Positions 20,266-36,641 of a DNA stretch of 36,641 bases are shown one piece after another. Within the stretch, counting starts at the first letter, position 1. Every line of letters begins with the position of its first letter. A program made the position numbers and the translations under genes. The notes beneath the pieces were generated by a model, which saw nothing but the letters and a program-made list of their open reading frames with translations, did not search any database and was not told where the DNA came from. Source of the stretch: Bacteroidales bacterium (GTDB taxonomy: Bacteria > Bacteroidota > Bacteroidia > Bacteroidales > P3); assembly GCA_017616895.1 (NCBI GenBank), contig JAFZXE010000001.1, positions 1-36,641 on the forward strand, in the 5' to 3' direction.

Positions 20266-20540
20266 CGATTCTCTGCATCGCATCCGTATAGGTAATAGTT
20301 ACACCGACTTTCCATCAGTGTTATTATGGTTCTACGTTGGCTCAACTCAGAAGATAATCAAAACTTGAGCAAAACCTGAGCAAAACCTGTAACCGTACAA
20401 TATTGAATCATACGCAGTTGCGACCCCTAAAAACGCCAATTTCCGCACATCTGAAAATGCGTTTCTCGCTGATTTGTAATAATATAACTTTTAGAAAAAA
20501 ATATCCCACAAGCACACATCCCAACCACACAAACCGCTTG
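20266..20540. other. Spacer without recognised gene
   Basis: No protein gene and no RNA family that I recognise. The only visible structure is a short direct repeat of GAGCAAAACCT near 20369-20390. Stops are frequent in all frames. Confidence 0.6.
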
Positions 20541-22212: not shown

Positions 22213-22283
22213 CCCCCCCCCCCACACACTAACCCACTAACGCATTAACGCACTAACGCAATAACACATTAACGCAATAACCC
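22213..22283. repeat. C11 tract followed by an octamer array (AnTAACnC)
   Basis: Eleven C (22213-22223) directly follow the murF stop. From 22228 to 22283 seven 8-bp units follow the pattern A-(C/T/A)-TAAC-(G/A/C)-C without interruption. The same octamer is found at 32554-32663 and 34579-34642, always on this strand. The period of 8 is not a multiple of 3, so it is not coding. The array ends 17 bases before the next gene. Confidence 0.9.
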
Positions 22284-22300
22284 AATCCCATATAAAACTA

Positions 22301-23299
22301 TTGCTGCCCCTCCTGCCGCTGCTCTTCACGTTTCTCGTAGGGCAGGCGCAGCCGCAGAGGATTGTTTTTTGGAATGTCGAAAACTTCTTCGACACCAGCA
22401 ACGACTCCTTGACCAACGACGACGCCTTCACCCCGCAAGGAACAAACCACTGGACGTCCAGTCGTTTCAACCTCAAGTGCAACAACATCTATAAGACCCT
22501 TGTGGCACTCGACGCGCCGATGGTCGTCGGCCTCGCCGAGGTCGAGAACTCCTACGTGCTTTCCCAGCTTTGCCTCGCCACCCCGCTGCGCAAGTTCGGC
22601 TATGATTTCATTCATTTCGACTCGCCCGACCCTCGCGGCATCGACTGTGCGCTTCTCTACCGCCGCAATCTCTTCCGTCCCTTCTACTCGTCGGCTATAT
22701 CGGTTTCTGACACAGCCACGCGGTGGTATTCTCGAGACCTCCTTCTGGTTGGAGGTACCACCTCTTCTGGCGACAGCCTTTTCCTCCTTGTCTGTCATCT
22801 CCCCTCTAAGCTGGGAGCCGCACTCGCCGACCATCACCGCGCACGCATAGCACGCCGCATCCGCGCGTTGGCCGACTCGCTAGCCGTCAGCCATCCCTGC
22901 CTTCCGTTGGTCGTCATGGGCGACTATAATGCCGACCCGCGCGAGCCAGGCTTCTGCTCGTCTTTCGGCTTTCCCGACAACCTGTTGCCCGAGGCTTATC
23001 CCGATGATTCACTCCCATCCAATCCCGAAGGGCTTGTGGGCCTTATGTATGCCTTCGCCGAAGGTGACGGTTCGTGCTCCTACGCCGACCGCTGGTCTTT
23101 CTTCGACCAGTTTCTTGTCCGTTTTCCCGCCTGCTCCAAATATCAGCAACCCTCGGCTCAAATCTTCCGTTCCGACTTCCTCGTCAAACCCAATCCCCGA
23201 TCCAACTCGGTCCGCCCCTTCCGCACCTACAGCGGTCCCAACTACCAAGGCGGTTTCAGCGACCACCTCCCAATCTACATCGACCTCTCCACCAAATAA
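22301..23299 (+). CDS. Secreted endonuclease/exonuclease/phosphatase-family protein
   Basis: A 332-residue protein with a leader peptide (LLPLLFTFLVGQAQ) and the DNase I-like phosphohydrolase fold: IVFWNVENFFDT at the start of the domain, the metal-binding glutamate in GLAEVENSYVL, DPRGIDCALLYRR, the VVMGDYNADPREPG motif and the terminal GGFSDHLPIYIDL with the catalytic Asp-His. Members hydrolyse phosphodiesters in nucleic acids or phospholipids; an exported copy in Bacteroidota may scavenge extracellular DNA phosphate, but the substrate is unknown. The start is odd: only TTG at 22301 is standard; an in-frame ATA at 22292 would give the more natural (M)KLLLPLLPLL signal peptide. The octamer array lies immediately upstream. 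Confidence 0.85.
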   Translation: MLPLLPLLFTFLVGQAQPQRIVFWNVENFFDTSNDSLTNDDAFTPQGTNHWTSSRFNLKCNNIYKTLVALDAPMVVGLAEVENSYVLSQLCLATPLRKFGYDFIHFDSPDPRGIDCALLYRRNLFRPFYSSAISVSDTATRWYSRDLLLVGGTTSSGDSLFLLVCHLPSKLGAALADHHRARIARRIRALADSLAVSHPCLPLVVMGDYNADPREPGFCSSFGFPDNLLPEAYPDDSLPSNPEGLVGLMYAFAEGDGSCSYADRWSFFDQFLVRFPACSKYQQPSAQIFRSDFLVKPNPRSNSVRPFRTYSGPNYQGGFSDHLPIYIDLSTK

Positions 23300-23333
23300 T
23301 TACCACATAGAATTCCCAGTTTGAACCGTTTTT

Positions 23334-23341
23334 CCCCCCCC
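23334..23341. repeat. C8 homopolymer tract
   Basis: Eight C followed by ACACACTA, the same arrangement as the C11 tract after murF. It lies between the phosphatase-family gene and the adhesin promoter, outside any coding frame. Slippage here would not change a protein. Confidence 0.8.
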
Positions 23342-23427
23342 ACACACTACCCCCATGATTTCTAAACCTTTATACCACTCCTGTTTATACGTAATACCGC
23401 TGACACTCAGATAAAAAAAAGAGAAAG

Positions 23428-23459
23428 TTTGGATTTCTCCAGAAATCTTCGTACTTTTG
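23428..23459 (+). promoter_or_regulatory. Strong Bacteroidota promoter of the large surface protein
   Basis: TTTG (23428-23431) and TACTTTTG (23452-23459) match both the -33 and -7 consensus elements with 20 bp between them, the best complete promoter in the window. Transcription should begin near 23466. The preferred start codon is 265 bases further on, implying a long leader, unless the ATG at 23482 is used. Confidence 0.82.
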
Positions 23460-23730
23460 TCAGCGTATAACGTACACAACCATGACCCCAAAAAACGCCC
23501 ACTGCGCCGAGCCGCAGTACATTTTTAGTACAACCTCCCAGAAAAACCACGCAGGTTATAACATGCAGGCGCACAGAGCCAGCATGTCTTCCGTTTCGCC
23601 ATGCTGCAAACTCCCAATCAACTCCGAACAAACTCCCAATAGACTTCCGTTATCCCCTCAAAAAAGACTATTCACAATCCAAAATTGTCTTTACCTCATC
23701 GCAAACCAAACTGACAAATTCAATGCCTCG

Positions 23731-26700
23731 ATGAAACAAGTCCACGTCCACACACGCGACCTGGTGCGACAATATCTATCGGGGATATTTAACTCGACAA
23801 TTACCATCATTCGAACATTCGCAATAGCGGTTTTGTTGGCCATCACCGCGACAACCGTCCAAGGTCAAATGTCCCTTACAGTAAACGACGGAACCTCAAC
23901 AAGTAGTTATATTCCAATGTATGGCGGGTGGTTTGATGACTTTACAAAAAGTGAATGTATCTATCCATACACATTGTTGGTTGATATGCCTGCCGGGAGC
24001 ATAATTACTTCCATGACATTCTATCCAAGAAATTTCACCACAGGCAATGGCTGGGGGGGTACAAACCAGAAGGTTTTCCTGAAAGAAGTAGCATCAACCT
24101 CACTTGGCGGCAGCTATAGCGGGATGGACGGTGCAACCATTGTTTTCGACGGACAGTTGCCTTTGCCAAGCGGTAGCGATCCGTACACGATAGATTTCTC
24201 TACAAATTACACATATAATGGAGGAAACATTCTAATCGGAGTGTACAATGATGATGATGGTAATTATAATTTCGCTTATTGGTATGGTACAACAGGCAAC
24301 ACCACGGGTGCTTCTGCATACGGCTCCAATAGTTCATCCCTCGCAAGCGTTAGTTACACCCAAACCAACTTCCTGCCAAAGGTTACTTTCACTTATTTGA
24401 TAAACGATTGTGAGGATTTCGAAAGTGGATCAATGCCTGCGGGGTGGACAACATCCGGACCGGGCACGTGGACTGTGGGTACTGGTGACTATACAACTGG
24501 AACAGGAGCTCATGGCGGCACATACAATGCCAAGATAACACATGGAACCACTAACAATGAAACATATTTGATAAGCCCGGTTATGGATTTCAGCAATGCA
24601 AGTTCACTCAACCTCTCGTTTTGGCTTGTAAATAGAAGTTGGGCTGGGGATATTGATGAACTTGGGGTTTACTATCGTGTGAACGGAGGTGCATGGACTG
24701 AAATATTTTACACGACCGCAACTCATGCCGTATGGTCGGAGCAGATTATTGAACTTCCAGGTCTTGCTGCCAACTATCAAATAGCGTTCAAAATGAAGGA
24801 CAAATATGGCTATGGTGTTGGCATTGACGATGTATGTATATTTACCCCAGAGCCAGTTGAATCCAATGGGTGCGAGAGTTTCGAGGGAGGTTCAATACCC
24901 TCTGGATGGACCACGTCTGGCGCAGGATCATGGAATGTGGGTACGGGTGATTATTCAACTGCGACAGGGGCTCAGGATGGGTCATACAATGCCCGAATCA
25001 CACATGGGACATCCGGAACTGAAACATATCTGATAAGCCCTGCCATGGACTTTAGCAGTGCGCGTTCTGCCACCCTCTCCTTCTGGTATGTCAACCGTAG
25101 TTGGGGTGGGGACATTGACGAACTTGGCGTTTATTATAGGGTGAATGGTGGAGCATGGACAGAGCTGTTTAGCACTTCTACCGCCCATTCTACATGGACA
25201 GAGCAGATTGTCGAATTAACCGGTCTTGACGCAAACTATCAGTTTGCATTCAAATTTACGGACCATTACGGCTATGGTGTGGGTATCGACTATGTTTGCA
25301 TAACTTCTGAGGAGGCTTGTACGGGATTTGAAGATGGGGCAATGCCTTCGGGATGGACCACATCTGGGCCTGGCACTTGGACTGTGGGTACAGGTGACTA
25401 TTACCCTTCAACCGGAGCGCATGACGGATCGTACAACGCTTTGATTACACACTCATCAACTGGCAATGAAACCTACTTGATAAGTCCTATGATGGATTTC
25501 AGTGCAGCATCTTCAGCCACTCTATCGTTTTGGTATATCAATAAAAGTTGGGGCGGCGATATTGACTATCTTACAATATATTACAGAATAGGTGCCAGCG
25601 GTACATGGGTTCAAATTGGGAATAATATCACGGCTGCGCACTCGTCTTGGACAGAAATGACTATCGACCTCCCCGCAGGAGCTCTTGCCGCAAACTGCCA
25701 GATTGGTTTCAAACATACAGACAAATATGGCTATGGTGTCGGTATTGACGATGTCTGCATCTTTGTAAGCGATGGCAACGTTACCCCGACCACCTGCGAC
25801 GAGACTATTGTTCTCAACCAAGACTTGACTCAAATAATAGAGTGTGGTACCGCGTACTGCTTCTACGATAGCGGTGGAGAATCTGGTAGCTACTCTGATA
25901 ATGAGTGCTATACCGCTACATTCATCGCTGCTGGTGATATTACCATTACATTTAGCGACTACAACACCGAGTCTTACTATGATTACCTGTATATTTATGA
26001 TGGAACGATTGATGGCACACAGTTATTCAACGGCTACGGCGTAAGCAGTTTACCATCACCGATGACTGCCACAAGCGGTGTAATGACTGTTGTGTGGAAT
26101 TCCGACGGTTCAAACACATACGGTGGCTGGAAAGCCAGGATTACTGGACCTGACTGCTGCACCCCGGCGCGCACACTGTCGATTACCGACTGCCCGACAG
26201 GTTCGGTGTATCACGGCAGCTCCTTCACCCTTCACGCGCAGGCATCCGCTGGCGGCGGCACGGTGACGTGGCAGAGCAGCAACGAGGCGGTTGCAACGGT
26301 TGACAACAGCGGCAACGTGACATGCGTTGGCGTCGGAACAGTCTCAATCATGGCTTTTATTTCGGCATCGAATCCTTATTGTCGAGCCGTTGCGACCTGC
26401 GACATCACCGTATCCTGCAGCGACGGCGCATGGAATATCGACGACATCCACAGGCAGACCAAGACCATCGAGTGCGGCAAAAGCTACTGTTTCTATGACA
26501 GCGGCGGTCCCGACAACATTTATGAAAACAACAACGAAAGTTTCAATTGCTCTTTCACATCCTCAGGCTATGTGCACATAAAATTCATGGATTTCTACAC
26601 AGAAAACCCTGATGTATTGACCATTTCTGGGACAGACAACGACGGAGCATATTCATACAGCGATATAACCCCTGGCACAGAATTTGTCTGTAGCACCGAG

Positions 26701-28212
26701 GGCGGAACTATCGATATCAGTTGGTCGTCCGACGGCAGTGTTCAGTATGCTGGCTGGAAAGCGGTAATCACTGCCGAGGAATGCTGCACACACCGCGACG
26801 GGGCTGTACAAATCACCAACAGCTGTCCGATAGAGCTAACTTATGGAAATACCGTGCAACTTAACGGCAGTGTGACCGTAGGAGGTGGTGACATTTCATG
26901 GCAGTCTAGTAATCCGGACGTTGCCACAGTAAGTGCAAGTGGACTTGTAAGCGCTTTGAACATAGGGACGACAACCATCACCTATACTTGTGCCGAAGAT
27001 GGCATCTATTGTGCGGAAAATACCACATGTGTAGTGGATATTGTGGTCCCGACACCTACAATTACACAAACAGATGATCCATTGCCAGCGTGCGGTGATG
27101 GCAGTGCAACGCTGGTCGCCAATGTGTCGGGCGTGCCAGCTGGATACGAGTTTCACTGGTACACAAACTCCTCCTGCACAACGGAGATAACCACAGGTGT
27201 GTCTGGGCCGAACAACAACACACTCTCGTATAATAATGCAACAAACGGGACACAGATATATTGTCGTTTGGAGAGCCATACTGCGAATAATGAGGTCGTT
27301 ACCGACTTCCTCTATACAGGTGCTGTACAAACATATACCGTGCCCATTGGTGCAGTTGAAGTCAAGATGGAAGTGTGGGGAGCACAAGGTGGAAGTGGAG
27401 GCCCCAGTTATCCAGGTGCAAAAGGCGGGTATTCTGTTGGCACAATGACTCTGCATGGTGTCAGCACTCTTTATGTCTATGTGGGTGGAGAGGGGCGTGG
27501 AAACAAAACCAGCAATTCGGTTACAACTAATCAATCGTTGGAGGGCGGTTTCAATGGCGGTGGAGCGTCATACCAGACAACAGAGAGTTATATTAGGGGA
27601 AGCGGTGGTGGCGCCACAGATATTCGTGTTGGCGGTAATTCCTTGTATAATAGGGTGATTGTCGCAGGTGGTGGCGGTGGGTCTTTTGTTTATACTTCTT
27701 CTGGTATCATAGGAGGAGTTGGAGGAGGTGTAAATGGTGGAAATGGCATAGGAAATACGGGTACTCAAAATGGCGGCACACAAACCAGTGGCGGTACCAG
27801 TAGTAGTACGTCCAATCCAGGTCCAGGAACATTCGGACAAGGAGGTAGTTACAATCCCAACGGACTAGGTAGTGGAATACCTGCATGGCATTGTGGTGGT
27901 GGCGGCGGATGGTATGGAGGTTCCGCAGGCACTCCAGGTGGCGGTGGGTCGGGGTATATCTACACCACAGAGACTTCTGCAAACTATCCGAGCGGATGTT
28001 TATTGAACTCAGACAATTACCTTTCCGATGCACAAACAATTTCCGGGGATCTATCAATGCCAGACCCGTCAAACGGCACAATGGTAGGCAGGGAAGGCGA
28101 TGGTTTTGCACGAATAACGGCCATTTCACATGATGGTACAAATGTTGGTAATGCTGGTTTTATAACTATCCAGTGCTGCGGTCTCGAAGCTACTATCGAG
28201 TTCGAAGACTAA
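23731..28212 (+). CDS. Giant multidomain surface protein: three Cleaved-Adhesin/MAM-like, two CUB, two BIG2 and a glycine-rich domain
   Basis: A 1493-residue exported protein. A signal-like segment (FAIAVLLAITATTVQGQ) ends near residue 46. Then come an N-terminal beta domain, three homologous units at about 227-375, 381-527 and 530-685 (each C/D-x-FE-x-G-x(2)-PxGWTTSG ... YLISPxMDFS ... KYGYGVGIDDVCI), a CUB-like domain (689-805), BIG2 (809-897), CUB (898-1015), BIG2 (1026-1108), an Ig-like stretch, and a glycine-rich domain (about 1193-1480: VEVKMEVWGAQGGSGG, GGGATDIRVGG, RVIVAGGGGGS) like that of ALK-type proteins. No T9SS sorting domain is seen at the end. I prefer ATG 23731; ATG 23482 is also open but its first 83 residues look non-coding. 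A promoter and terminator bracket it. Adhesion or glycan binding is the likely role. Confidence 0.85.
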   Translation: MKQVHVHTRDLVRQYLSGIFNSTITIIRTFAIAVLLAITATTVQGQMSLTVNDGTSTSSYIPMYGGWFDDFTKSECIYPYTLLVDMPAGSIITSMTFYPRNFTTGNGWGGTNQKVFLKEVASTSLGGSYSGMDGATIVFDGQLPLPSGSDPYTIDFSTNYTYNGGNILIGVYNDDDGNYNFAYWYGTTGNTTGASAYGSNSSSLASVSYTQTNFLPKVTFTYLINDCEDFESGSMPAGWTTSGPGTWTVGTGDYTTGTGAHGGTYNAKITHGTTNNETYLISPVMDFSNASSLNLSFWLVNRSWAGDIDELGVYYRVNGGAWTEIFYTTATHAVWSEQIIELPGLAANYQIAFKMKDKYGYGVGIDDVCIFTPEPVESNGCESFEGGSIPSGWTTSGAGSWNVGTGDYSTATGAQDGSYNARITHGTSGTETYLISPAMDFSSARSATLSFWYVNRSWGGDIDELGVYYRVNGGAWTELFSTSTAHSTWTEQIVELTGLDANYQFAFKFTDHYGYGVGIDYVCITSEEACTGFEDGAMPSGWTTSGPGTWTVGTGDYYPSTGAHDGSYNALITHSSTGNETYLISPMMDFSAASSATLSFWYINKSWGGDIDYLTIYYRIGASGTWVQIGNNITAAHSSWTEMTIDLPAGALAANCQIGFKHTDKYGYGVGIDDVCIFVSDGNVTPTTCDETIVLNQDLTQIIECGTAYCFYDSGGESGSYSDNECYTATFIAAGDITITFSDYNTESYYDYLYIYDGTIDGTQLFNGYGVSSLPSPMTATSGVMTVVWNSDGSNTYGGWKARITGPDCCTPARTLSITDCPTGSVYHGSSFTLHAQASAGGGTVTWQSSNEAVATVDNSGNVTCVGVGTVSIMAFISASNPYCRAVATCDITVSCSDGAWNIDDIHRQTKTIECGKSYCFYDSGGPDNIYENNNESFNCSFTSSGYVHIKFMDFYTENPDVLTISGTDNDGAYSYSDITPGTEFVCSTEGGTIDISWSSDGSVQYAGWKAVITAEECCTHRDGAVQITNSCPIELTYGNTVQLNGSVTVGGGDISWQSSNPDVATVSASGLVSALNIGTTTITYTCAEDGIYCAENTTCVVDIVVPTPTITQTDDPLPACGDGSATLVANVSGVPAGYEFHWYTNSSCTTEITTGVSGPNNNTLSYNNATNGTQIYCRLESHTANNEVVTDFLYTGAVQTYTVPIGAVEVKMEVWGAQGGSGGPSYPGAKGGYSVGTMTLHGVSTLYVYVGGEGRGNKTSNSVTTNQSLEGGFNGGGASYQTTESYIRGSGGGATDIRVGGNSLYNRVIVAGGGGGSFVYTSSGIIGGVGGGVNGGNGIGNTGTQNGGTQTSGGTSSSTSNPGPGTFGQGGSYNPNGLGSGIPAWHCGGGGGWYGGSAGTPGGGGSGYIYTTETSANYPSGCLLNSDNYLSDAQTISGDLSMPDPSNGTMVGREGDGFARITAISHDGTNVGNAGFITIQCCGLEATIEFED
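24409..25770 (+). repeat. Three tandem ~450-bp coding repeats in the surface protein
   Basis: Homologous units begin at 24409, 24871 and 25318. They share long near-identical stretches at DNA level, for example around ACATATTTGATAAGCCC and AATATGGCTATGGTGT. Copy number could change by recombination or slippage without breaking the frame. Confidence 0.85.
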
Positions 28213-28231
28213 TCAATCAACATGACAATGT

Positions 28232-28275
28232 TGCAGCAGGCTTCATCCGAAGCCTGCTGCAGTTATTATTATTCT
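28232..28275 (+). terminator. Terminator after the surface protein
   Basis: A perfect 12-bp stem (28232-28243 with 28250-28261) and 6-base loop are followed by GTTATTATTATTC. It lies 19 bases after the stop. The T-tract is interrupted, so termination may be partial. Confidence 0.8.
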
Positions 28276-28349
28276 CAAACAAACGTGGCGAATCACTAAC
28301 TAATATACGTCCTTGTTTCGCTTTGCGCGTACGATATATAATAAACAGC

Positions 28350-28357
28350 TAGTTTTG
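28350..28357 (+). promoter_or_regulatory. Promoter -7 element of the KefB-type gene
   Basis: TAGTTTTG matches TAnnTTTG exactly, 17 bases before the ATG. A TTTG at 28322-28325 lies 24 bp upstream, a little farther than usual for a -33 element. Confidence 0.6.
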
Positions 28358-28374
28358 TCGTTTATTATTTCTGT

Positions 28375-30624
28375 ATGGCCGAATTGAACCCCCTTTTTCG
28401 CGAACTTGCCCTCATCCTCGTTACCGCTGGTGTCATCACCGTCATATTCAAGTGGCTCAAGCAGCCTCTCGTGCTCGGCTACATCGTGGCAGGTTTCTTC
28501 ATCGGCCCTCACTTCCCTTGGTTCCCCATCATCAAAGGCGACGAGAACCTCACTCTCTGGAGCGAGATAGGTATAGTGTTCCTTATGTTCGCCCTCGGCC
28601 TTGAGTTCAGTATCAAGAAACTGAAGAAAGTGGGCGGCACGGGTGCCATAACAGCCTTCACCGAGTTGGCGCTGATGTTCCTCATAGGCAACGTTGTGGG
28701 TCGCATCCTCGGATTTTCCACCATGGAGGGCGTCTTCCTCGGCTGTATGCTCTCCATCTCGTCAACAACTATCATCATCAAGTCTTTCGACGACCTCAAA
28801 CTCAAACAGCAGAAGTTCACCTCGACGGTTACAGGCGTACTCGTCGTCGAAGACCTTATCGCCGTGCTGCTGCTTGTTATACTCGGCACACTCTCCGTCA
28901 GCAAGACCTTTGACGGCGGACAACTCGGCATGAAGATGCTCATGCTGGGCTTTTTCCTTATTGTCTGGTTCACCTTCGGCATCTTCCTCATCCCGACATT
29001 CCTCCGTTGGATGCGCCGTTTCATGACCGAAGAAATCCTCTGCATCGTAGCGGTAGGGTTGTGCTTCGGTATGGTTGTGCTGGCCGATGCCGCAGGTTTC
29101 TCCACGGCTCTCGGCGCGTTTGTGATGGGAGCTATCCTTGCTGAGACTATCGAGGCCGACGTCATCCATCGCGTCGTCACCCCTATAAAGAACCTCTTCG
29201 GCGCGGTGTTCTTCGTCAGTGTCGGCATGCTGGTTGACCCTGCGGTGCTGGCCAAGTACTGGCTTCCCGTGCTGGTTATAGCCCTCACAGTGGTGCTCTT
29301 CAAGTCACTTTCGGCTACTTTGGGTGTCGTCCTCTCGGGTCGTCCGCTCAGGACCGCCATGCAGAGTGGCTTCTGCTTCTGCCAAATCGGTGAGTTTTCC
29401 TTCATCATCGCTGGTCTCGGCCTCTCCTACGGTGTCATACGCGGCGAGCTCTACCCGATAATAGTTTCGGTCTCCATCATCACGACCTTCGTCACTCCCT
29501 ATATGATAAAGGCAGGCCTGCCCGCCTATGAGTTTCTTTGGCCTCGACTTCCTCTCCGTTGGCGTGAGGGATTGGAGCGTTATGCGTCGCAGTCGAAGAG
29601 CTCCGAGCCGGGGCTTTCGGTGCGTCAGTTCATGAAAAAACAGTTCTCGTCCATAGTTATCTACGGTGTCATAAGCGTCGCTCTGCTGTTGCTCTCCATG
29701 CTGCTGCTGAAGCCGTTGCTCAACAAGATTTTTGTCACCTCCGAGGGCATGCCTTCTATCTGGGGCAACCTCGTAGGTTTGGCTGTCACCATCTCAGTCA
29801 TGGCTCCGTTCCTTTGGGCGCTGGCGCTCAAGAACCTCAACCGACAGAAGGTCAAGGACCTCCTCGAGGAATACCGTTACAGCCAGGCTGTCGTCGTCCC
29901 GGTCATACTCTTGCGCTACTTCCTTGTCATCTTGCTTCTCGGTATCGCCATCGGACGCTACATCTCGCTAGCCTTCGGCATCATACTCGTCCTGGCCATC
30001 TTCATGTTCATCGTAGTACGATTCTCGGGCAAGGTCAACGGCTTTTACAAACATATCGAAACTCGTTTCCTGACTAACTTCAACTCTCGTCAGGCGCAGA
30101 CTTCGTTCAAGATACCTCCTTCCATGGAGCACCAGTTCTCTATGGAGCGTGTCGGCGTTACACAGTTCTCCAAATATGTCGGCGTGACCCTTCTCGAATC
30201 GGGCTTCCGCCAGAACTACGGTGTCAACGTAGTCTCCATCGAGCGTGGCGAGCGTGTCATTGACCTCCCGCCCAAGGAGACCGTCGTCATGCCGCTCGAC
30301 CGCCTCACCGTAATCGGCACAGAGGAGCAGATTTCTCGCTTCCGTTCCGACCTCGAGGTCGAACCCTCGATACTCATCCGCGACCACTCCGACAACGAGC
30401 TCAACATCTACCGCTATGTGGTGGTTGACACCGGCCCGCTTGTCGGCAAGACGCTCTCTCATTCCGACTTCCAGCAGCGTCACCACGGCATGATTATCGC
30501 CATTCAGCGCGACACCGACTACATCGTCAACCCTCCTGCCTCTACGGTGTTCCAAAACGGCGACATCGTCTGGTTTGTCTCGCCCGACGAGATATCGCTG
30601 CGAAAATTCATCGACGACGATTAA
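28375..30624 (+). CDS. CPA2-family cation:proton antiporter with TrkA-C domains (KefB-type)
   Basis: Inner-membrane monovalent cation/proton antiporter. The 749-residue product has an N-terminal Na+/H+ exchanger domain of about 12 helices (VLGYIVAGFFIGPHFPWFP, IVFLMFALGLEFSIKKLKKVG, GVLVVEDLIAVLLLVILG with the family's conserved Glu-Asp pair, FSTALGAFVMGAILAE), a second hydrophobic block at about 420-560, and two C-terminal RCK_C/TrkA-C-like domains (GVNVVSIERGERVIDLPPKE, LVGKTLSHSDFQQRHHGMII). The RCK_N Rossmann domain of classical KefB/KefC appears to be absent and replaced by the extra helices. Potassium or sodium as the substrate cannot be decided. The S41 protease gene follows after 18 bases, so the two are probably co-transcribed. 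Confidence 0.88.
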   Translation: MAELNPLFRELALILVTAGVITVIFKWLKQPLVLGYIVAGFFIGPHFPWFPIIKGDENLTLWSEIGIVFLMFALGLEFSIKKLKKVGGTGAITAFTELALMFLIGNVVGRILGFSTMEGVFLGCMLSISSTTIIIKSFDDLKLKQQKFTSTVTGVLVVEDLIAVLLLVILGTLSVSKTFDGGQLGMKMLMLGFFLIVWFTFGIFLIPTFLRWMRRFMTEEILCIVAVGLCFGMVVLADAAGFSTALGAFVMGAILAETIEADVIHRVVTPIKNLFGAVFFVSVGMLVDPAVLAKYWLPVLVIALTVVLFKSLSATLGVVLSGRPLRTAMQSGFCFCQIGEFSFIIAGLGLSYGVIRGELYPIIVSVSIITTFVTPYMIKAGLPAYEFLWPRLPLRWREGLERYASQSKSSEPGLSVRQFMKKQFSSIVIYGVISVALLLLSMLLLKPLLNKIFVTSEGMPSIWGNLVGLAVTISVMAPFLWALALKNLNRQKVKDLLEEYRYSQAVVVPVILLRYFLVILLLGIAIGRYISLAFGIILVLAIFMFIVVRFSGKVNGFYKHIETRFLTNFNSRQAQTSFKIPPSMEHQFSMERVGVTQFSKYVGVTLLESGFRQNYGVNVVSIERGERVIDLPPKETVVMPLDRLTVIGTEEQISRFRSDLEVEPSILIRDHSDNELNIYRYVVVDTGPLVGKTLSHSDFQQRHHGMIIAIQRDTDYIVNPPASTVFQNGDIVWFVSPDEISLRKFIDDD

Positions 30625-30642
30625 TCCGAATATTCTCAACCT

Positions 30643-32271
30643 ATGAAAAAGCTTGTATTCATACTCGCCCTTTCCCTTTGTACCTTCGGCTATGCGCAGG
30701 ACAAAGGGTTCGAGATTTCCAAGAACCTCGAGATTTTCTCCAACGTCTATAAGAACGTCCACCTCAACTATGTTGACGACGTCGATCCCGGCAAACTTAT
30801 GAAGACCGCCATCGACGCCATGCTGGCCTCGCTCGACCCCTACACCAACTTCTACGCCGAAAGCGACATGGAGGACGTGAAGCTCCAACTCCTCGGCGAA
30901 TACGGCGGCGTGGGTGCGCTCATCCACCAGCAGGACGGACATATCTATGTGGCTGAGCCTTACGAGGGCCTTCCTGCCGACAAGGCTGGTCTCAAGGCTG
31001 GCGACCGCATACTCGAGGTTAACGGCACCTCAACCGATGGCAAGACCACTTCCGACGTCTCCAGCGCCATGCGTGGTCAGTCGGGTACCGACGTCAAACT
31101 AAAACTTATGCGTGACGGTCGCACCTTCGACTGCACTCTCACACGTCAGGAAATTAAGCTTCCCAACGTGCCATACAGCGGCATCCTCCCGTCGGGCATC
31201 GGCTACATCAAACTCAGCGAGTTTACCCAGGATGCCGGCAAGAACGTGCGTGAGGCGTTCAAACAGCTGAAGAAGCAGCGTCCAGATATGCCTGGCCTAA
31301 TCATCGACCTCCGTGGCAACGGCGGCGGATTGATGAACGAGGCGGTCGAGATTGTCGGCATGTTCGTCAAACGCGGCGAATTGGTGGTCGAAACCAAAGG
31401 CAAACTCGCCACCAAGAATGTCAAGAGCTACACCCGCAACGCACCTGATGACCTCGACATACCGCTTGCCGTCCTTATCGACGGCTACAGCGCCTCCGCT
31501 TCCGAGATTGTCAGCGGCAGCCTCCAGGACTTCGACCGCGCCGTCATCATCGGCAGCCGCTCCTACGGCAAAGGTCTGGTGCAGAACATACTCCCGATGA
31601 CCTATAACACCCAGATGAAGGTCACCGTTTCCAAGTACTACATCCCCTCGGGTCGTTGCATACAGGCGCTTGACTACTCCCACCGCGACGAGAACGGACG
31701 AGCTATGCGGGTGCCCGACTCGCTCAAGACAGCCTTCAAAACCCGCAACGGACGCACCGTCTATGACGGTTTCGGCATCGAACCTGATGTCGAGGTCGAA
31801 CAGGAGTACATGTCCGCACTCTCTGTGGCTCTGGTCCAGAAATTCCTCATCTTCAACTATGCCACCCAGTTTGTCAAGCAGCATCCTACCATAGCACCTC
31901 CGTCTCAGTTCGAGATAACCGACGAAATCTACGACGACTTCCGCCGTTACCTGTCCGACAAGGAATACAACTATTCCACATCCACCGAGAAGTACCTCGA
32001 CGACCTCAAGACCATTGCCAAGGAGGAAAAATACTACGATGAGGTAGAATCCGACATCGCTGCACTGGAGGCCAAGCTCAAGACCGACAAGAACCGCGAC
32101 CTCACCAAATACCGCGAGGAAATAAGCGAGATGCTCAAGAGCGAAATCCTCTCGCGCTACTACTATCAGAAGGGTAGGGTAGAAGGTTCCCTCATCCACG
32201 ACAAAGACGTCCTCAAAGCCGTCGAAATCCTCTCCGACAAAGCCCAATACACCAAAATCCTGAAGAAGTGA
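30643..32271 (+). CDS. S41-family C-terminal processing peptidase (CtpA/Prc-like)
   Basis: Periplasmic serine protease that trims or degrades envelope proteins from the C-terminus. The 542-residue product has a signal peptide (MKKLVFILALSLCTFGYAQ), a helical N-terminal region (MKTAIDAMLASLDPYTNFY), a PDZ domain at about 84-170 (GVGALIHQQDGHIYVAEPYEGLPADKAGLKAGD; core PADKAGLKAGDRILEVNG), and the protease core with GYIKLSEFTQDAGKNV and LIIDLRGNGGG. The catalytic dyad fits Ser285 in DGYSASASEI and Lys310 in GSRSYGKG, 25 residues apart as in Prc. The C-terminal 130 residues are helical. It follows the antiporter gene by 18 bases. A long nonamer array begins 21 bases after its stop. Confidence 0.94.
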   Translation: MKKLVFILALSLCTFGYAQDKGFEISKNLEIFSNVYKNVHLNYVDDVDPGKLMKTAIDAMLASLDPYTNFYAESDMEDVKLQLLGEYGGVGALIHQQDGHIYVAEPYEGLPADKAGLKAGDRILEVNGTSTDGKTTSDVSSAMRGQSGTDVKLKLMRDGRTFDCTLTRQEIKLPNVPYSGILPSGIGYIKLSEFTQDAGKNVREAFKQLKKQRPDMPGLIIDLRGNGGGLMNEAVEIVGMFVKRGELVVETKGKLATKNVKSYTRNAPDDLDIPLAVLIDGYSASASEIVSGSLQDFDRAVIIGSRSYGKGLVQNILPMTYNTQMKVTVSKYYIPSGRCIQALDYSHRDENGRAMRVPDSLKTAFKTRNGRTVYDGFGIEPDVEVEQEYMSALSVALVQKFLIFNYATQFVKQHPTIAPPSQFEITDEIYDDFRRYLSDKEYNYSTSTEKYLDDLKTIAKEEKYYDEVESDIAALEAKLKTDKNRDLTKYREEISEMLKSEILSRYYYQKGRVEGSLIHDKDVLKAVEILSDKAQYTKILKK

Positions 32272-32292
32272 CGAGTGATTAGTAGTCAGTGC

Positions 32293-32454
32293 GCAACCTA
32301 TACGACTTATACGACTTATAAGACCTATAAGACTCATAAGACCTATAAGACCTATAAGACTCATAAGACCTATAAGACCTATAAGACTCATAAGACCTAT
32401 AAGACCCATAAGACCTATAAGACCCATAAGACTCATAAGACCTATAAGTCTTAT
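32293..32454. repeat. Nonamer array, 18 units of AAGACCTAT type
   Basis: Eighteen uninterrupted 9-bp units (consensus AAGACCTAT, variants AAGACTCAT, AAGACCCAT, ACGACTTAT). In the middle the units form a 27-bp higher-order period (two AAGACCTAT then one AAGACTCAT, three times). A 9-bp period keeps all frames open, so spurious frames run through it on both strands (Lys-Thr-Tyr or Ile-Gly-Leu repeats), but no start context or homology supports coding. Confidence 0.93.
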
Positions 32455-32461
32455 CAACAGA

Positions 32462-32482
32462 AAACCTATCAACATATCAACA
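32462..32482. repeat. Short CTATCAACA-type spacer repeat
   Basis: CTATCAACATATCAACA here recurs in altered form at 34689-34719 and within the M16 gene at about 35453-35473. Confidence 0.6.
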
Positions 32483-32517
32483 TTGGCCAGCAGTTAGCAA
32501 TTAGTCGTCAGCAAATA

Positions 32518-32663
32518 CATTTGTCAATTCACTATTCACTAATCACTATTCACACTAACCCACTAACGCAATAACGCACTAACGCAATAGCACACTAACG
32601 CATTAACGCAATAACGCATTAACCCACTACCGCACTAACACACTAACACAATAACGCAATAAC
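32518..32663. repeat. Heptamer array (TATTCAC) joined to an octamer array (AnTAACnC)
   Basis: 32518-32553 holds CATTTGTCAATTCAC followed by heptamers of TATTCAC/TAATCAC type. It passes directly into about fourteen 8-bp AnTAACnC units (32554-32663) that stop 7 bases before the TTG of the next gene. The same two elements occur in the other order at 34579-34684. Confidence 0.9.
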
Positions 32664-32670
32664 TAAAGCC

Positions 32671-34254
32671 TTGTTCTTCCGCATCCTATACATCCTCTTC
32701 CTTACCCTCCTTGCGGGCAGTGCCGTCTGTTCCAATTTCATGATGAACCTCGCATGGACGCTCCTCCTCGTCAACTGGGTTTTCGAGCGTGGTTTCCATC
32801 GCAAGTTTGCCGACTTCAAGACCAACGGACTCCTCCATCTGGCCATACTCTACTTCCTCCTCTCGGCCGTGTCGCTTGCATGGACAAGCGATCTCCCGCG
32901 AGGCCTCGACGCCCTGCGTCAGGTGCTTCCAATACTTGTCGTGCCACTTGTGGTGCTTACCTCCAAGCCCCTCACTCCCATCCAGTGGCGAATCGTCGTC
33001 ACAGGTTATGTTGGCACCCTTTTCGTCGTATCCGTCATCGGCTTTGTCCGCTGGCTCACCATCCCCGACCTCCCTTATCGGCAGATAGTGCCCTTCATCT
33101 CCCATATCCGCTTCTCCCTCAACCTCGTCTTCGCCATCTGCCTGCTCCTTTTCTTCCTCCTCAAAGCCTTCGACCGTCACACGATACTCTCCGCGCCTAT
33201 CCTCTCCACCCTGTCGTTACTTCTTGCCCTGTGGTTTTTGTTCTATCTCTTCCTGTTGCAATCCTATACAGGTCTCTTTATATTGATTTTCACTGCACTC
33301 CTATCCATACTCTTCTTCTGGCGGCGTCTGCAAACTCGTCCGCTGCGGTGGTTCTTGCTCATAGCTGCGGTGGTTTCTGTGACCTCCTTTGCGGGCCTTG
33401 TGACCTATTATGTCAACGACTACTACACCCCCCGTCTAGACACCGTTGACCGCTCACGCCTTACCCGCAACGGCAATCCCTACACCTTTGCCCACGACGG
33501 TTTGGTTGAGTGTGGCCGTTATGTCAACGACTTCGTTTGCGAACCCGAGCTGCGAGCAGAATGGCCCAAGGTCAGCTCCGTGCCTGTCGATTCTATAACC
33601 CCAGTCGGCTACACCGTCCTTCCCGCTCTGGTGCGCTACCTCAACGCTATGGGGCTCACCAAGGACAGCGTTGGCGTAGCTTCCCTTGCGCCGTCCGACA
33701 TAGTTGCCATCGAGCAAGGTATCGCTAACCCTGTCTATTCGCAGAAAGCCAGCCTCCGGCGTATGGTTTATGTCATGCTTTTCGAGTACGAGAACTACCG
33801 CTGTTACCGCACCGTCTGTGGCTTCACTATGCTCCAGCGGTTTGAACTCTGGCGGGCCTCGTGGAGCGTTGTATGCGACCACTGGCTCTACGGTGTGGGC
33901 ATCGGCAGCGTTGAGTCCGCACTCGACCGTCAGCTAGCCGCCGACCATTCGCCCCTCGCCGGCACTCATAAGAACCCCCATAACCAGTATCTCGCACTCC
34001 TAATGACCTTCGGCGCCATAGCCTCAGCACTCATTCTGGCATGCCTGCTGTGGGCAATAATCCGTCGCCGCCTCTGGCGCAAGCCCCTCTTCGTCGCCTG
34101 CCTCACCATAGTCCTCCTGTCCTGCCTAACCGAAGACACTCTCCAAACCTGCGCCGGCGCCCTCTTCGCCGCCCTCTACCTCTCCCTGACAAGTCAGCAA
34201 TCAGGTGCGTGCCCGCACACGGCGGATAAGAGCACAGCAGTCAGCAGTGAGTGA
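32671..34254 (+). CDS. O-antigen ligase / Wzy polymerase-like membrane protein
   Basis: Predicted polytopic inner-membrane glycosyltransferase-type protein that polymerises or ligates surface glycans. The 527-residue product has about 10-12 hydrophobic helices and one large periplasmic segment (about 255-400) rich in polar residues. Near its end is GVGIGSVESALDRQ followed by THKNPHNQYLALLMTFG, matching the Wzy_C/O-antigen ligase signature (His-Asn ... small-residue helix). Ligase, polymerase and lipid-linked glycan roles cannot be separated. No other glycan genes are beside it. The start is weak: TTG at 32671; an in-frame ATA at 32659 would add Thr-Lys-Ala-type residues but lies inside the octamer array. 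No terminator is seen after it. Confidence 0.82.
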   Translation: MFFRILYILFLTLLAGSAVCSNFMMNLAWTLLLVNWVFERGFHRKFADFKTNGLLHLAILYFLLSAVSLAWTSDLPRGLDALRQVLPILVVPLVVLTSKPLTPIQWRIVVTGYVGTLFVVSVIGFVRWLTIPDLPYRQIVPFISHIRFSLNLVFAICLLLFFLLKAFDRHTILSAPILSTLSLLLALWFLFYLFLLQSYTGLFILIFTALLSILFFWRRLQTRPLRWFLLIAAVVSVTSFAGLVTYYVNDYYTPRLDTVDRSRLTRNGNPYTFAHDGLVECGRYVNDFVCEPELRAEWPKVSSVPVDSITPVGYTVLPALVRYLNAMGLTKDSVGVASLAPSDIVAIEQGIANPVYSQKASLRRMVYVMLFEYENYRCYRTVCGFTMLQRFELWRASWSVVCDHWLYGVGIGSVESALDRQLAADHSPLAGTHKNPHNQYLALLMTFGAIASALILACLLWAIIRRRLWRKPLFVACLTIVLLSCLTEDTLQTCAGALFAALYLSLTSQQSGACPHTADKSTAVSSE

Positions 34255-34314
34255 TTGGTAGTCAATGAACTTGAAACCCTAAACTTAAAATGATAATTCA
34301 CTAATAACCCAATA

Positions 34315-34535
34315 GAGTCTTTCGATGTAAAATAGTTTTCGCATCCTTTTCGCCTTTTCCGCAAAATTTCGCAATCAAAACCCCTTTCGTGTCTTTCGTG
34401 TCTTTCGATGTTAAAAAAAACATCGTAACAAAAGAAACAGCGAAGCGCCTTTCAGTTTTCGTAATTTTCGCCAAAGCAACAGCCAAAAATCTTTTAGTGT
34501 TTTTTAGTCCTTTTCGAGTTTTTCGATGTTAAAAA
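34315..34535. repeat. Long C/T-rich spacer repeat, copy upstream of the M16 gene
   Basis: Contains CGCAATCAAAACCCCTTTCG, TTCGTGTCTTTCGATGTTAA, GCGAAGCGCC and TTTTCGTAATTTTCGCC in this order. Bases 34359-34472 are almost identical to 36083-36196 downstream of the M16 gene, differing by a two-base change in the AGAAACAGCG / AGAACAAGCG part. Frames on both strands are partly open but biased and of no known family. Confidence 0.9.
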
Positions 34536-34578
34536 AACTAGAAAGCAATAACGCAATCCTCCAACCAATCCCCAAACC

Positions 34579-34719
34579 ACTAACGCACTAACACAATAAC
34601 ACAATAACACATTAACGCATTAACGCACTAACGCAATAACACCCTCCATTTGTCAATTCACTATTCACTATTCACAATTCACTCAAAATATATCAACCTA
34701 TCCACATATCAACACAACA
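34579..34719. repeat. Octamer array, heptamer array and CTATCAACA-type repeat
   Basis: Eight perfect-period octamers (34579-34642) are followed by CATTTGTCAATTCAC plus TATTCAC heptamers (34647-34684) and then ATATCAACCTATCCACAT-type sequence (34689-34719). This is the spacer directly before the M16 protease gene and shows three repeat families side by side. Confidence 0.88.
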
Positions 34720-34747: not shown

Positions 34748-36016
34748 ATGTACCTCTACCATACCCTCCCCAACGGTCTCCGTATCGTCTTCCGCCGAAC
34801 CGACTCACCCGTAGCCTATTCAGGCGTCTATATCGGCGTCGGCTCGCGCCACGAGCAAGGACCCGAAGAGGGAGTTGCACACTTCATAGAACACTCCATC
34901 TTCAAAGGCACCACCCATCGCCGCGCCTACCATATCCTCAACCGCATCGATGGGGTAGGTGGCGAGCTCAACGCCTTCACCACCAAGGAGGAGACCTGCA
35001 TCTATGCCTCTTCACTCGTTGAGCACTTGCCCCGTTGCATCGAGCTTTTCAGCGACGTCCTTTTCAATTCCCAGTTCCCCTTGCACGAGATAGAGAACGA
35101 GAAAGACGTCGTCATCGAAGAAATTAACAGCTACCGCGACCAGCCAGCCGACCTCATCTACGACGAGTTCGAAGAGTATTTCTTCGAAGGTCATCCGCTG
35201 GCGCATAACATACTAGGAACCAAGAAGAACGTCAAAGCCTTCACCCCCGAGTTCTTGCGTGATTTCCTTGTTCGCAACTACACCCCCGACCGCATGGTCC
35301 TCACCGTAGTCGCCAATATAGACTTCGAAAAACTAATCCGCCTAGCCGACCGCCATTTCTGTGACAAGGGATCTCTCCTCGATAATTCAAAATTACCCCA
35401 ACAATCTTCTGACCACTTAAAACTTAAAACTTCCAGCTTAAAACTAAGAAAAACATATCCACCTATCAACATCTTCCATAAAACTCTTAATCGCCACACC
35501 CACCAGACCCACATGCTTTTAGGCTGTCTGGCACCCGACCTCTTCGACGAGCGCAAGGTCGCCTTCTCCCTCCTCAACAACCTCATAGGAGGCCCCGCCA
35601 TGAACTCACGTCTTAATGTGGCTGTGCGCGAGAAATACGGCTTCTGCTACACCATTGAGTCACAGTACGTACCATTTACCGATACAGGCCTTTTCTACAT
35701 CTATGCCGGCGTTGACCACGGCGCTGCCGACAGAGCACGCGACCTCATCTTTCGCGAGCTCCACCGCCTTGCCACCGAGCCCCTCACCCCCAACCAGTTA
35801 CGAGCCGCACAGCGGCAGTACATAGGGCAGATGGCCATCAACAACGACTCCTCCCTCAACGAGATGCAATCCATCGGCAAAGCCTACCTCAACTACGACC
35901 GAGTCGATACCATCGACGAGATGGCCCGCGACATCCTTGCCCTCACCCCCGACGACCTCCTTGCCGCCGCCTCCCGCCTCACCCCCGACAACTTCAGCCA
36001 GCTGATTTACAAGTAG
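34748..36016 (+). CDS. M16 family zinc metalloprotease (pitrilysin/MPP-like)
   Basis: Peptidase with the inverted zinc motif His45-x-x-Glu48-His49 (HFIEHSIFKG) and the downstream zinc-ligand glutamate in VVIEEINSYRD (Glu124/125). The 422-residue product has the single-unit (two-lobe) M16 length, with the C-lobe signature LLNNLIGGPAMNSRLNVAVREKYGFCYTIES (core GGPAMNSRLNVAVREKYG) and TDTGLFYIYAGVD. No signal peptide, so cytosolic or processing-type. Residues 211-243, in the linker between lobes, are unusual: Lys/Leu/Ser-rich (LPQQSSDHLKLKTSSLKLRK) and encoded by DNA that looks like the neighbouring spacer repeats. The reading frame stays open through it. Start is ATG 34748 (MYLYHTLPNGLRIVF). 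Confidence 0.93.
   Translation: MYLYHTLPNGLRIVFRRTDSPVAYSGVYIGVGSRHEQGPEEGVAHFIEHSIFKGTTHRRAYHILNRIDGVGGELNAFTTKEETCIYASSLVEHLPRCIELFSDVLFNSQFPLHEIENEKDVVIEEINSYRDQPADLIYDEFEEYFFEGHPLAHNILGTKKNVKAFTPEFLRDFLVRNYTPDRMVLTVVANIDFEKLIRLADRHFCDKGSLLDNSKLPQQSSDHLKLKTSSLKLRKTYPPINIFHKTLNRHTHQTHMLLGCLAPDLFDERKVAFSLLNNLIGGPAMNSRLNVAVREKYGFCYTIESQYVPFTDTGLFYIYAGVDHGAADRARDLIFRELHRLATEPLTPNQLRAAQRQYIGQMAINNDSSLNEMQSIGKAYLNYDRVDTIDEMARDILALTPDDLLAAASRLTPDNFSQLIYK
35378..35475 (+). repeat. Spacer-repeat-like segment inside the M16 reading frame
   Basis: The DNA is A/T-rich, unlike the G+C-rich codons on both sides, and contains AATTCAAAATT, repeated CTTAAAAC and ACATATCCACCTATCAACAT. The first and last of these resemble the spacer just before this gene (34689-34745). 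It adds about 33 residues at the lobe linker. Confidence 0.6.
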
Positions 36017-36036: not shown

Positions 36037-36641
36037 GAAACAGCGAAGCGCCCTTTCAATTTTCGCAACCTTTTCGCCATTTCCGCAAAATTTCGCAATC
36101 AAAACCCCTTTCGTGTCTTTCGTGTCTTTCGATGTTAAAAAAAACATCGTAACAAAAGAACAAGCGAAGCGCCTTTCAGTTTTCGTAATTTTCGCCCAAG
36201 CAAGCTCCCAAACACCTTTTCGTCCTTTTCGTGTCTTTAGATGTAAAAACAAACCCAAGCAAGGTTTCGAGCGAAGCAAGAAACGATTTTCGCATCCCTT
36301 TCGCCATTTTCGCAAAATTTCGCAATCAAAACCCCCGTTCGAGTTTTTCGAGTTTTTCGATGTTTAATAAACAATCGCAACAAAAAGAAAGCAGCGAAGC
36401 GCCCTTTCAATTTTCGCCATTTTCGCCCAAGCAAGCCCCCAAACACCTTTTCGTCCTTTTCGTGTCTTTCGATGTTAAATCCCACCCCGACAAGGTTTCG
36501 AGCGAAGCAAGAAACAGTTTTCGCCCCTTTTCGCCCTTTTCGCAGATTTTCGCAATCAAAAACCCCGTTCGAGTTTTTCGAGTTTTTCGATGTTTAATAA
36601 ACAATCGCAACAAAAAGAAAGCAGCGAAGCGCCCTTTCAAT
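36037..36641. repeat. Tandem long C/T-rich spacer repeat, ~230-bp period, running off the window
   Basis: At least two and a half tandem units. The 70-80 bases from CCCGTTCGAG (about 36334) to CCCTTTCAAT (36410) recur exactly 230 bp downstream (about 36564-36640); GGTTTCGAGCGAAGCAAG recurs at 36263 and 36494. The first part (36083-36196) matches the copy at 34359-34472 almost perfectly. No terminator or gene is visible in these 625 bases; small open frames on both strands are by-products of the repeat. Confidence 0.92.

Follow-up and report, generated by a model that had tools for sequence, protein, structure and literature searches.

Octamer and other short tandem arrays in the intergenic spacers of a Bacteroidales genus tend to share one strand polarity at gene starts and stops

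Three arrays of a tandemly repeated octamer were examined in a 36,641 nt stretch of DNA, here called the window, from a Bacteroidales bacterium (GenBank assembly GCA_017616895.1, contig JAFZXE010000001.1). The octamer is one of several short tandem repeat families, with periods mostly of 7, 8 and 11 bp, that occupy the intergenic spacers in this Bacteroidales genus. In the samples taken, the arrays are dispersed, can change by a whole unit and can give way to other repeat families between flanking genes that are still about 90% identical. Near genes, the C-rich strand of an array tends to run into the gene at both starts and stops, and in the sampled spacers of the source genome the order is G-rich array first and C-rich array second, never the other way round. 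The explanation we favour, with moderate confidence, is that the arrays are slippage-born filler copied between spacers, the strand of which is sorted by selection at the ends of transcripts.

The window is one whole contig (C31) of the source genome (G000; a rumen-type metagenome-assembled genome of an uncultured gut bacterium, 2.61 Mb in 31 contigs, 88% complete). Array 1 (positions 22228–22283, seven units) lies in the 88 bp spacer between the murF stop and a gene of the endonuclease/exonuclease/phosphatase type, and is followed by array 2 (32554–32663, 13 full units and 6 bases) and array 3 (34579–34642, eight units). A preliminary description made from the sequence had reported all three in the same (forward) orientation with an exact 8 bp period and a nearly fixed TAAC, and rereading the window bore this out. 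TAAC was intact in 7/7, 11/13 and 8/8 full units of arrays 1, 2 and 3, respectively, the two altered units of array 2 being AATAGCAC and ACTACCGC. A 20-mer probe (TAACNCANTAACNCANTAAC) had 17 matches in the window and none in each of 100 dinucleotide shuffles. The distances of 17, 7 and 105 bp from array to gene start also hold, given TTG 22301, TTG 32671 and ATG 34748 as the starts. For the second gene our caller favours ATG 32740 over TTG 32671, but the relative G014 has a TTG at the same place followed by an alignable protein start (LLFRAFYILF versus LFFRILYILF), which supports TTG 32671.

The octamer had 178 matches in the whole source genome, 89 on each strand. The main units there are TAAC[GA]CA[ATC], and none contains GGG. 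At the fifth position, G and A alternate between adjacent units beyond expectation (148 GA or AG pairs versus 80 GG or AA), so some growth may go by 16 bp double units. Of the 119 genomes in the genus, 58 besides the source genome were searched, and 29 had at least one match. The same was true of two of 40 other genomes from the order and, in a sample taken across the phylum, of 11 out of 394, with two of these 11 exceeding two matches. More than 40 matches were found in three of 99 genomes, G053 (206), G000 (178) and G021 (71), while the nearest relatives of the source genome, G041 and G014, had six and 20. The expansion looks recent and repeated. A control using the reversed pattern (16 and 23 matches) was discarded because the reversed octamer also fits parts of the same arrays and is not independent. 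Two distant Bacteroidota, G548 (C1, 1513000–1513163) and G275 (36 matches), carry TAACTCAA/TAACCCAA octamer arrays, which are likely of independent origin.

Position and strand of arrays at gene starts and stops

Positions were examined in three samples: 40 tiles of 20 kb (800 kb) from contigs of the source genome known to carry octamer matches, the tiles not being centred on arrays; an array-centred set of 20 stretches of the same genome plus the window; and 307 kb of G053, including one 7 kb stretch picked for its arrays. Genes were called with a simple codon-usage caller made for this analysis (525 genes and 76% coding in the tiles), and one genome per species was compared. Counting arrays of at least three units gave 37, 34 and 15 in the three samples; seven inside called open reading frames were excluded, leaving 79 intergenic arrays. 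For the array-centred and G053 sets, the counts cover arrays with called neighbours on both sides.

The placement of the arrays before gene starts, proposed in the preliminary description, stood as a preference of orientation. Spacers between co-directional genes held 48 sense and 15 antisense arrays (41 and 15 after collapse to one per neighbourhood), and 16 of the 48 sense arrays ended within 20 bp of the start. Relative to 2000 randomisations of position in which spacer, strand and length were kept, the 3′ side of the TAAC strand was found within 20 bp of a start more often than expected (20/79 arrays, null mean 13.0, p 0.008). Starts were not the only such place, however, as the same side lay within 20 bp of a stop in 15/79 arrays (null mean 4.4, reached in 0/2000 simulations, p <0.0005), bringing the total within 20 bp of a gene boundary to 35/79. 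The 5′ side was never found within 20 bp of a start (0/79, null mean 4.2, p 0.0025), and its count within 20 bp of a stop was not significant (10/79, null mean 13.4). Stop-side octamer arrays elsewhere in the source genome are flipped, that is, antisense to the gene with the same 3′ side inward, and the 3′ side faces a stop in 20/79 arrays. The octamer arrays favour starts in one orientation, yet press the same side against stops, and their position is not start-specific.

The same polarity was found when all tandem arrays were considered. Tandem Repeats Finder (TRF) detected 335 intergenic arrays in the tiles, making up 8% of spacer bases, with main periods of 11, 7, 8, 14 and 16 bp. The C-rich strand ran into the gene in 85% of 48 arrays within 30 bp of starts and in 74% of 88 arrays within 30 bp of stops, and the bias vanished more than 80 bp from starts and more than 30 bp from stops. 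The C–G skew over positions 1–10 before starts was +0.66 for repeat bases and +0.10 for non-repeat spacer bases, and over positions 1–10 after stops it was −0.31 and 0.00. In convergent spacers, where no start is nearby, near-stop arrays were C-inward in 40/47 cases pooled over five sets (16/19, 8/9, 2/2, 10/13 and 4/4). Of the single families, AAAACTT near stops was inward in 10/11 cases.

Array order was examined in adjacent pairs of opposite skew, within spacers 30–500 bp long. G-rich followed by C-rich outnumbered the reverse by 33:0 in the tiles, 9:0 in the array-centred set and 15:4 in G053. The right half of the whole spacer was the more C-skewed in 193/300 spacers of the tiles, which is significant.

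Quadruplexes were considered as the cause of the polarity and rejected. GGG-free arrays within 40 bp of genes remained C-inward (37/44 at starts and 63/85 at stops), and only 1/154 near-gene TRF arrays has four GGG runs. As the same two-ended rule holds with almost no GGG, it is unlikely that quadruplexes generally cause it. Palindrome symmetry was likewise rejected as the cause in the source genome, where 3/335 arrays had an inverted mate in the same spacer compared with 5.0 expected; in G053, the palindrome arms were not polar (18/31).

Turnover of spacers between relatives

The two nearest relatives were aligned to the window piece by piece, with nucleotide identities of 73–85% (G041) and 73–88% (G014). 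The window spacers of 88, 399 and 493 bp correspond to 0, 66 and 114 bp in G041, with the ends read by eye; where the window has its 88 bp spacer, the murF stop of G041 overlaps, as TGATGA, with an ATG that could plausibly start the following gene (not called there). The second and third spacers of G014 are longer than those of the window and have other content. Octamers recurred in 3/6 relative-spacer pairs, involving two of the three window spacers. In G041, the third spacer alone carries an octamer array, whose five units end 5 bp before the ATG (11370) of the gene that we take to encode an M16-type peptidase. In G014, five units lie further upstream of the start of this gene, and three units lie directly before the TTG (10621) of the second gene, presumably O-antigen-ligase-like.

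Six array-bearing sites were aligned between the sister species G053 and G122. One facing array pair is nearly identical, one site differs by exactly one 8 bp unit (five versus four), in keeping with the change by whole units suggested in the preliminary description, and one faces poorly alignable sequence. At the remaining three, other repeats replace the octamers, namely CCCTTAAA-type or CCTCAAA-type runs at two sites and a palindrome at the third, and at one of these replacement sites the neighbouring AGCGGAA array persists.

Two stretches of these two genomes yielded 21 syntenic spacers measuring 20 bp or more (three shorter spacers were left out), with flanking genes 74–93% identical; shuffled identity was beaten by more than 0.15 in 4/21. 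Where the flanks averaged at least 88% identity this was so for 2/10 spacers, or 3/10 with one at +0.14, compared with 23/32 spacers in control pairs at 87–92.5% identity (Fisher p 0.008 and 0.027, respectively; the control pairs share genomes). These alignments are no more than suggestive of a faster renewal of spacers in G053/G122 than in the control pairs.

Other structures were also seen in these spacers. The same composite, made up of an AGCGGAA array, a GGCTGCCGCGCCAG-type centre, a TAACGCAT array and a TTAACTCCCC-like tail, is present in three nearby spacers of G053 (L194, 17440–17640, 19012–19173 and 19384–19603), and pieces of about 100 bp recur in G122. Sister-species spacers also hold hairpins or facing arrays with tandem-repeat arms around a GC-rich centre, some abutting stop codons (G053 L194 11050–11170, 13465–13538 and 15120–15190; also L181, L182, L183, L184 and L185).

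Explanations of the strand polarity

Under the explanation we favour, arrays would arise and lengthen via replication slippage, with recombination or template switching carrying copies from one spacer to another; the spacer sequence would tolerate most non-coding letters. Selection at both transcript ends would then sort the array strand. Before a start, the A/C strand alone would be tolerated, having nearly no start-type codons, few G and stops in all frames, while the G/T strand would add spurious ATG, GTG and TTG codons to the leader. The preliminary description had supposed that an unstructured A/C-rich array next to a start could set translation efficiency, and the codon counts do show a leader nearly devoid of start-type codons: per 100 nt, start-type and stop codons number 0.09 and 10.9 on the TAAC strand, compared with 18.19 and 5.8 on the opposite strand. 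Translation start in the Bacteroidetes does not involve Shine-Dalgarno pairing. AUG is reported to be depleted around starts in this phylum (PMC6847099). In such a phylum, the G/T strand would be expected to make a poor leader and the A/C strand one that does no harm, which would explain the polarity on the start side; the stop side needs a second cause. After a stop, the G/T-rich, C-poor strand would be tolerated or favoured, and our guess is that it would help termination or keep C-rich read-through RNA out of the 3′ untranslated region or genes. Unit number would probably be near-neutral. As the strand tends to point the same way into the gene at its start and its end, the arrays look like fast-changing, strand-sorted filler rather than a simple output dial.

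Several results weigh against this explanation. With strand randomised as well as position (null means 8.7 and 8.9 for the 3′ side at starts and stops, and 8.9 and 8.6 for the 5′ side at stops and starts), the 15 arrays with the 3′ side at a stop compare with 8.9, at only p 0.02, and the count of arrays nearer to the gene on their 3′ side (43/79) is not significant. Antisense arrays in co-directional spacers have to stay clear of the next start, which accounts for part of the stop enrichment there, and the selection at stops is itself a guess. For '--' spacers, four of five sets give a weak result on the stop side (18/28, 4/6, 3/6 and 4/8, with 4/4 in G122), and single families vary, with AATTCAC near stops inward in four cases and outward in four. 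The array order was not significant in 80 loci of relatives (16:7) and was reversed in divergent spacers (six C–G, three G–C). The difference between spacer halves was not significant in the array-centred set (56/97) or in G053 (67/127), and in relatives it went in the other direction, again not significantly (94/216). Start positions are uncertain, and the gene calls come from a simple in-house caller. Finally, the octamers in 3/6 relative spacers, two of them within 10 bp of a start, and the nearly identical facing pair suggest that some arrays are kept.

The foremost alternative, which we consider unlikely, develops the idea of the preliminary description into a translation device: as elements of the leader, the arrays would be bound by the ribosome or by a protein that recognises RNA, and unit number would set output. 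MacGregor 2015 raised the same idea for TAACTGA repeats. The 48:15 excess of sense arrays and the 16/48 that end within 20 bp of a start are in its favour, as are the clean A/C leader and the exact one-unit difference between G053 and G122. The octamers directly before the same starts in relatives (TTG 10621 in G014 and ATG 11370 in G041) raised its standing slightly. However, 15/79 arrays are at stops, antisense, with the same side inward, and the other families, when pooled, share the polarity. Octamers were swapped for other repeats at 3/6 sites in the sister species, and of the G041 counterparts of the window spacers (0, 66 and 114 bp) only the last has an octamer array. A start-side device with a unit-number knob is possible but is not supported by these observations.

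Also unlikely, and placed below the translation device, is that the arrays are sites at which an insulating protein binds DNA or RNA; one example would be Rho-type loading on RNA that is rich in C and poor in G. In favour of this, the C-rich strand leads into genes at either end, and read-through RNA coming from either direction would accordingly be C-rich and G-poor. Yet the four commonest octamer types are without TC or CC, and the families have unrelated units with no single site kept.

We regard it as improbable that the arrays form the arms of REP- or MITE-like palindromes mobilised by a transposase, whether of Y1/RAYT type or another. This would suit G053, where 31/121 arrays share their spacer with an inverted mate (2.6 expected), array-armed hairpins are present and one composite occupies three nearby spacers; facing octamer arrays are found in G035, G010, G025, G042 and G053. 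In the source genome, by contrast, inverted mates were not above expectation (3 versus 5.0), and the arm skew of the G053 palindromes was not polar (18/31). The Y1 transposase (Y1_Tnp, PF01797) had no match in the source genome, which is 88% complete, in a search that did not cover other transposase families. A Y1/RAYT transposase was rejected as the mover on this ground; 46/61 genomes searched have one, G053 being outside that set.

Least probable of all is polar end-copying, in which a DNA-end process would extend 3′ ends outward from genes with G/T-rich repeats, in a telomere-like manner, leaving the C-rich strand inward at both ends: the polarity at starts and stops (GGG-free arrays included), the 42:0 order in the source genome samples, the G053/G122 spacers that differ as whole blocks and the same polarity reported in the accessible text on GGGNATC heptamers of Xanthomonas and Nostoc (PMC4692102) would fit, but the many families per genome and the mixed unit variants in one array misfit a single template, the bias does not extend past 30 bp at stops or 80 bp at starts, a pattern that selection too would produce, and the order is not significant in relatives. 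We similarly give little credence to the broader proposal that gene-inward C-strand polarity is a general law of bacterial spacer arrays, independent of quadruplexes and arising from polar outward writing (3′-end extension or transcription-linked copying) and not from later selection.

Short bacterial intergenic repeats have so far been interpreted either as regulators on the start side of genes (TAACTGA) or in terms of quadruplexes (GGGNATC). Several unrelated families here, nearly all of them incapable of forming quadruplexes, lean to one strand rule at both gene ends, which separates the rule from both readings. This makes it possible to test cleanly between a copying process and selection at transcript ends as the origin of the rule, and the genus offers close species pairs with many spacers that differ as whole blocks.

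Neighbouring features and known repeat systems

The gene after array 1 (22301–23299, forward strand, TTG start assumed) matched an ExeM/NucH-type nuclease model at 33 bits, far under the cut-off of 300. The gene after array 2 (32671–34254, forward, TTG start) is of membrane type with no NCBIfam match, and O-antigen-ligase-like is our own reading of it. The gene after array 3 (34748–36016, forward, ATG start) was YfmH/YfmF-like at about 92 bits, under the cut-offs, and M16-type peptidase is the name by which we presume to call it. For one window protein, the best named matches were metagenome-assembled genomes of rumen and other gut Bacteroidales, with Candidatus Colimorpha lower among the matches listed. 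In an Rfam scan of the window, tRNA alone reached the gathering score.

The spacers of arrays 2 and 3 also carry other tandem families (9-mer, 7-mers and 8-mers), all listed here on the forward strand. The array 2 spacer includes 17 copies of the 9 bp unit ACCTATAAG (32296–32448) and a 7 bp ATTCACT array (32527–32553) that adjoins array 2 on its 5′ side. A second ATTCACT array (34656–34683) and an 8 bp ATATCAAC array (34690–34714) lie between array 3 and the gene start. The 11 bp families (CAAAACCTGAG, CATATCAAAGC and others) have the commonest intergenic period in the tiles (70/335 arrays) and are mostly far from starts; one example is at 20359–20389 in the window. A tandem repeat of 230 bp (36057–36641, 2.6 copies), made up of TTTTCG-rich 9-mers, reaches the contig end and may have broken the assembly there.

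A copy of a short hairpin repeat, GTGCGTGCCCGCAC, is found in the window at 34205–34218 on the forward strand, here in a reading frame ahead of its stop and elsewhere near gene 3′ ends. It is a small GC hairpin with 22 copies in the 800 kb of tiles, 21 of them sense to the upstream called gene and eight at, or one base into, the stop-codon end of that gene. AGGGC often comes next, and several copies are trailed by a T-rich AAGTTTT array, which gives the repeat a terminator-like appearance. No exact copy was found in the G053 tiles.

A literature search, mostly without subscription journals, found no published account of these Bacteroidales octamer arrays. Dispersed intergenic repeats include the REP/BIME palindromes and phase-variable simple sequence repeats, in which unit number changes. 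Unlike REP/BIME, the present arrays in the source genome have inverted mates no more often than chance, and no Y1 transposase match was found there. The STRR heptamer repeats of Cyanobacteria form short tandem intergenic arrays of several families, and the present arrays are also short, tandem, intergenic and multi-family.

TAACTGA direct repeats are described, in the accessible text of MacGregor 2015 (PMC4679880), from Beggiatoaceae, Cyanobacteria and a few Bacteroidetes as mostly forward and close to starts, and translational control was proposed; one Bacteroidetes array is directly after a stop and reversed, and in the BOGUAY genome 12/170 arrays are listed toward a stop. Going by that text, the shared features are short TAAC-bearing units with stops in all frames, a dispersed, intergenic and lineage-specific distribution and, in some species, mixture with other repeat families. 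TAACTGA is a heptamer of nearly fixed sequence, whereas the present unit is an octamer with an exact 8 bp period and two variable positions. The TAACTGA-type start bias, measured here, was 48:15 for sense in co-directional spacers, but as many arrays face a stop (20/79) as lie within 20 bp of a start (20/79). Stop-facing arrays are a large class here, and other families share the two-ended polarity, both differences from the repeats as described in that text.

For the GGGNATC-type heptamers of Xanthomonas and Nostoc, the text of Rehm et al. 2015 (PMC4692102) reports a G-rich strand that is antisense in the 50 bp ahead of starts and sense in the 50 bp following stops, and links the repeats to quadruplexes, with no function found. 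As far as that text goes, the likeness lies in the G-rich strand facing outward at both gene ends, the wide spread and the variation in unit number. Four is the commonest unit count of GGGNATC and also of the present octamer arrays (29/86, counting from three units up). The GGGNATC repeats form G-quadruplexes, whereas the present octamer units are without GGG and a single one of the 154 near-gene TRF arrays has four GGG runs. The GGGNATC loci are reported there to be unusually stable, while the spacers sampled here turn over fast.

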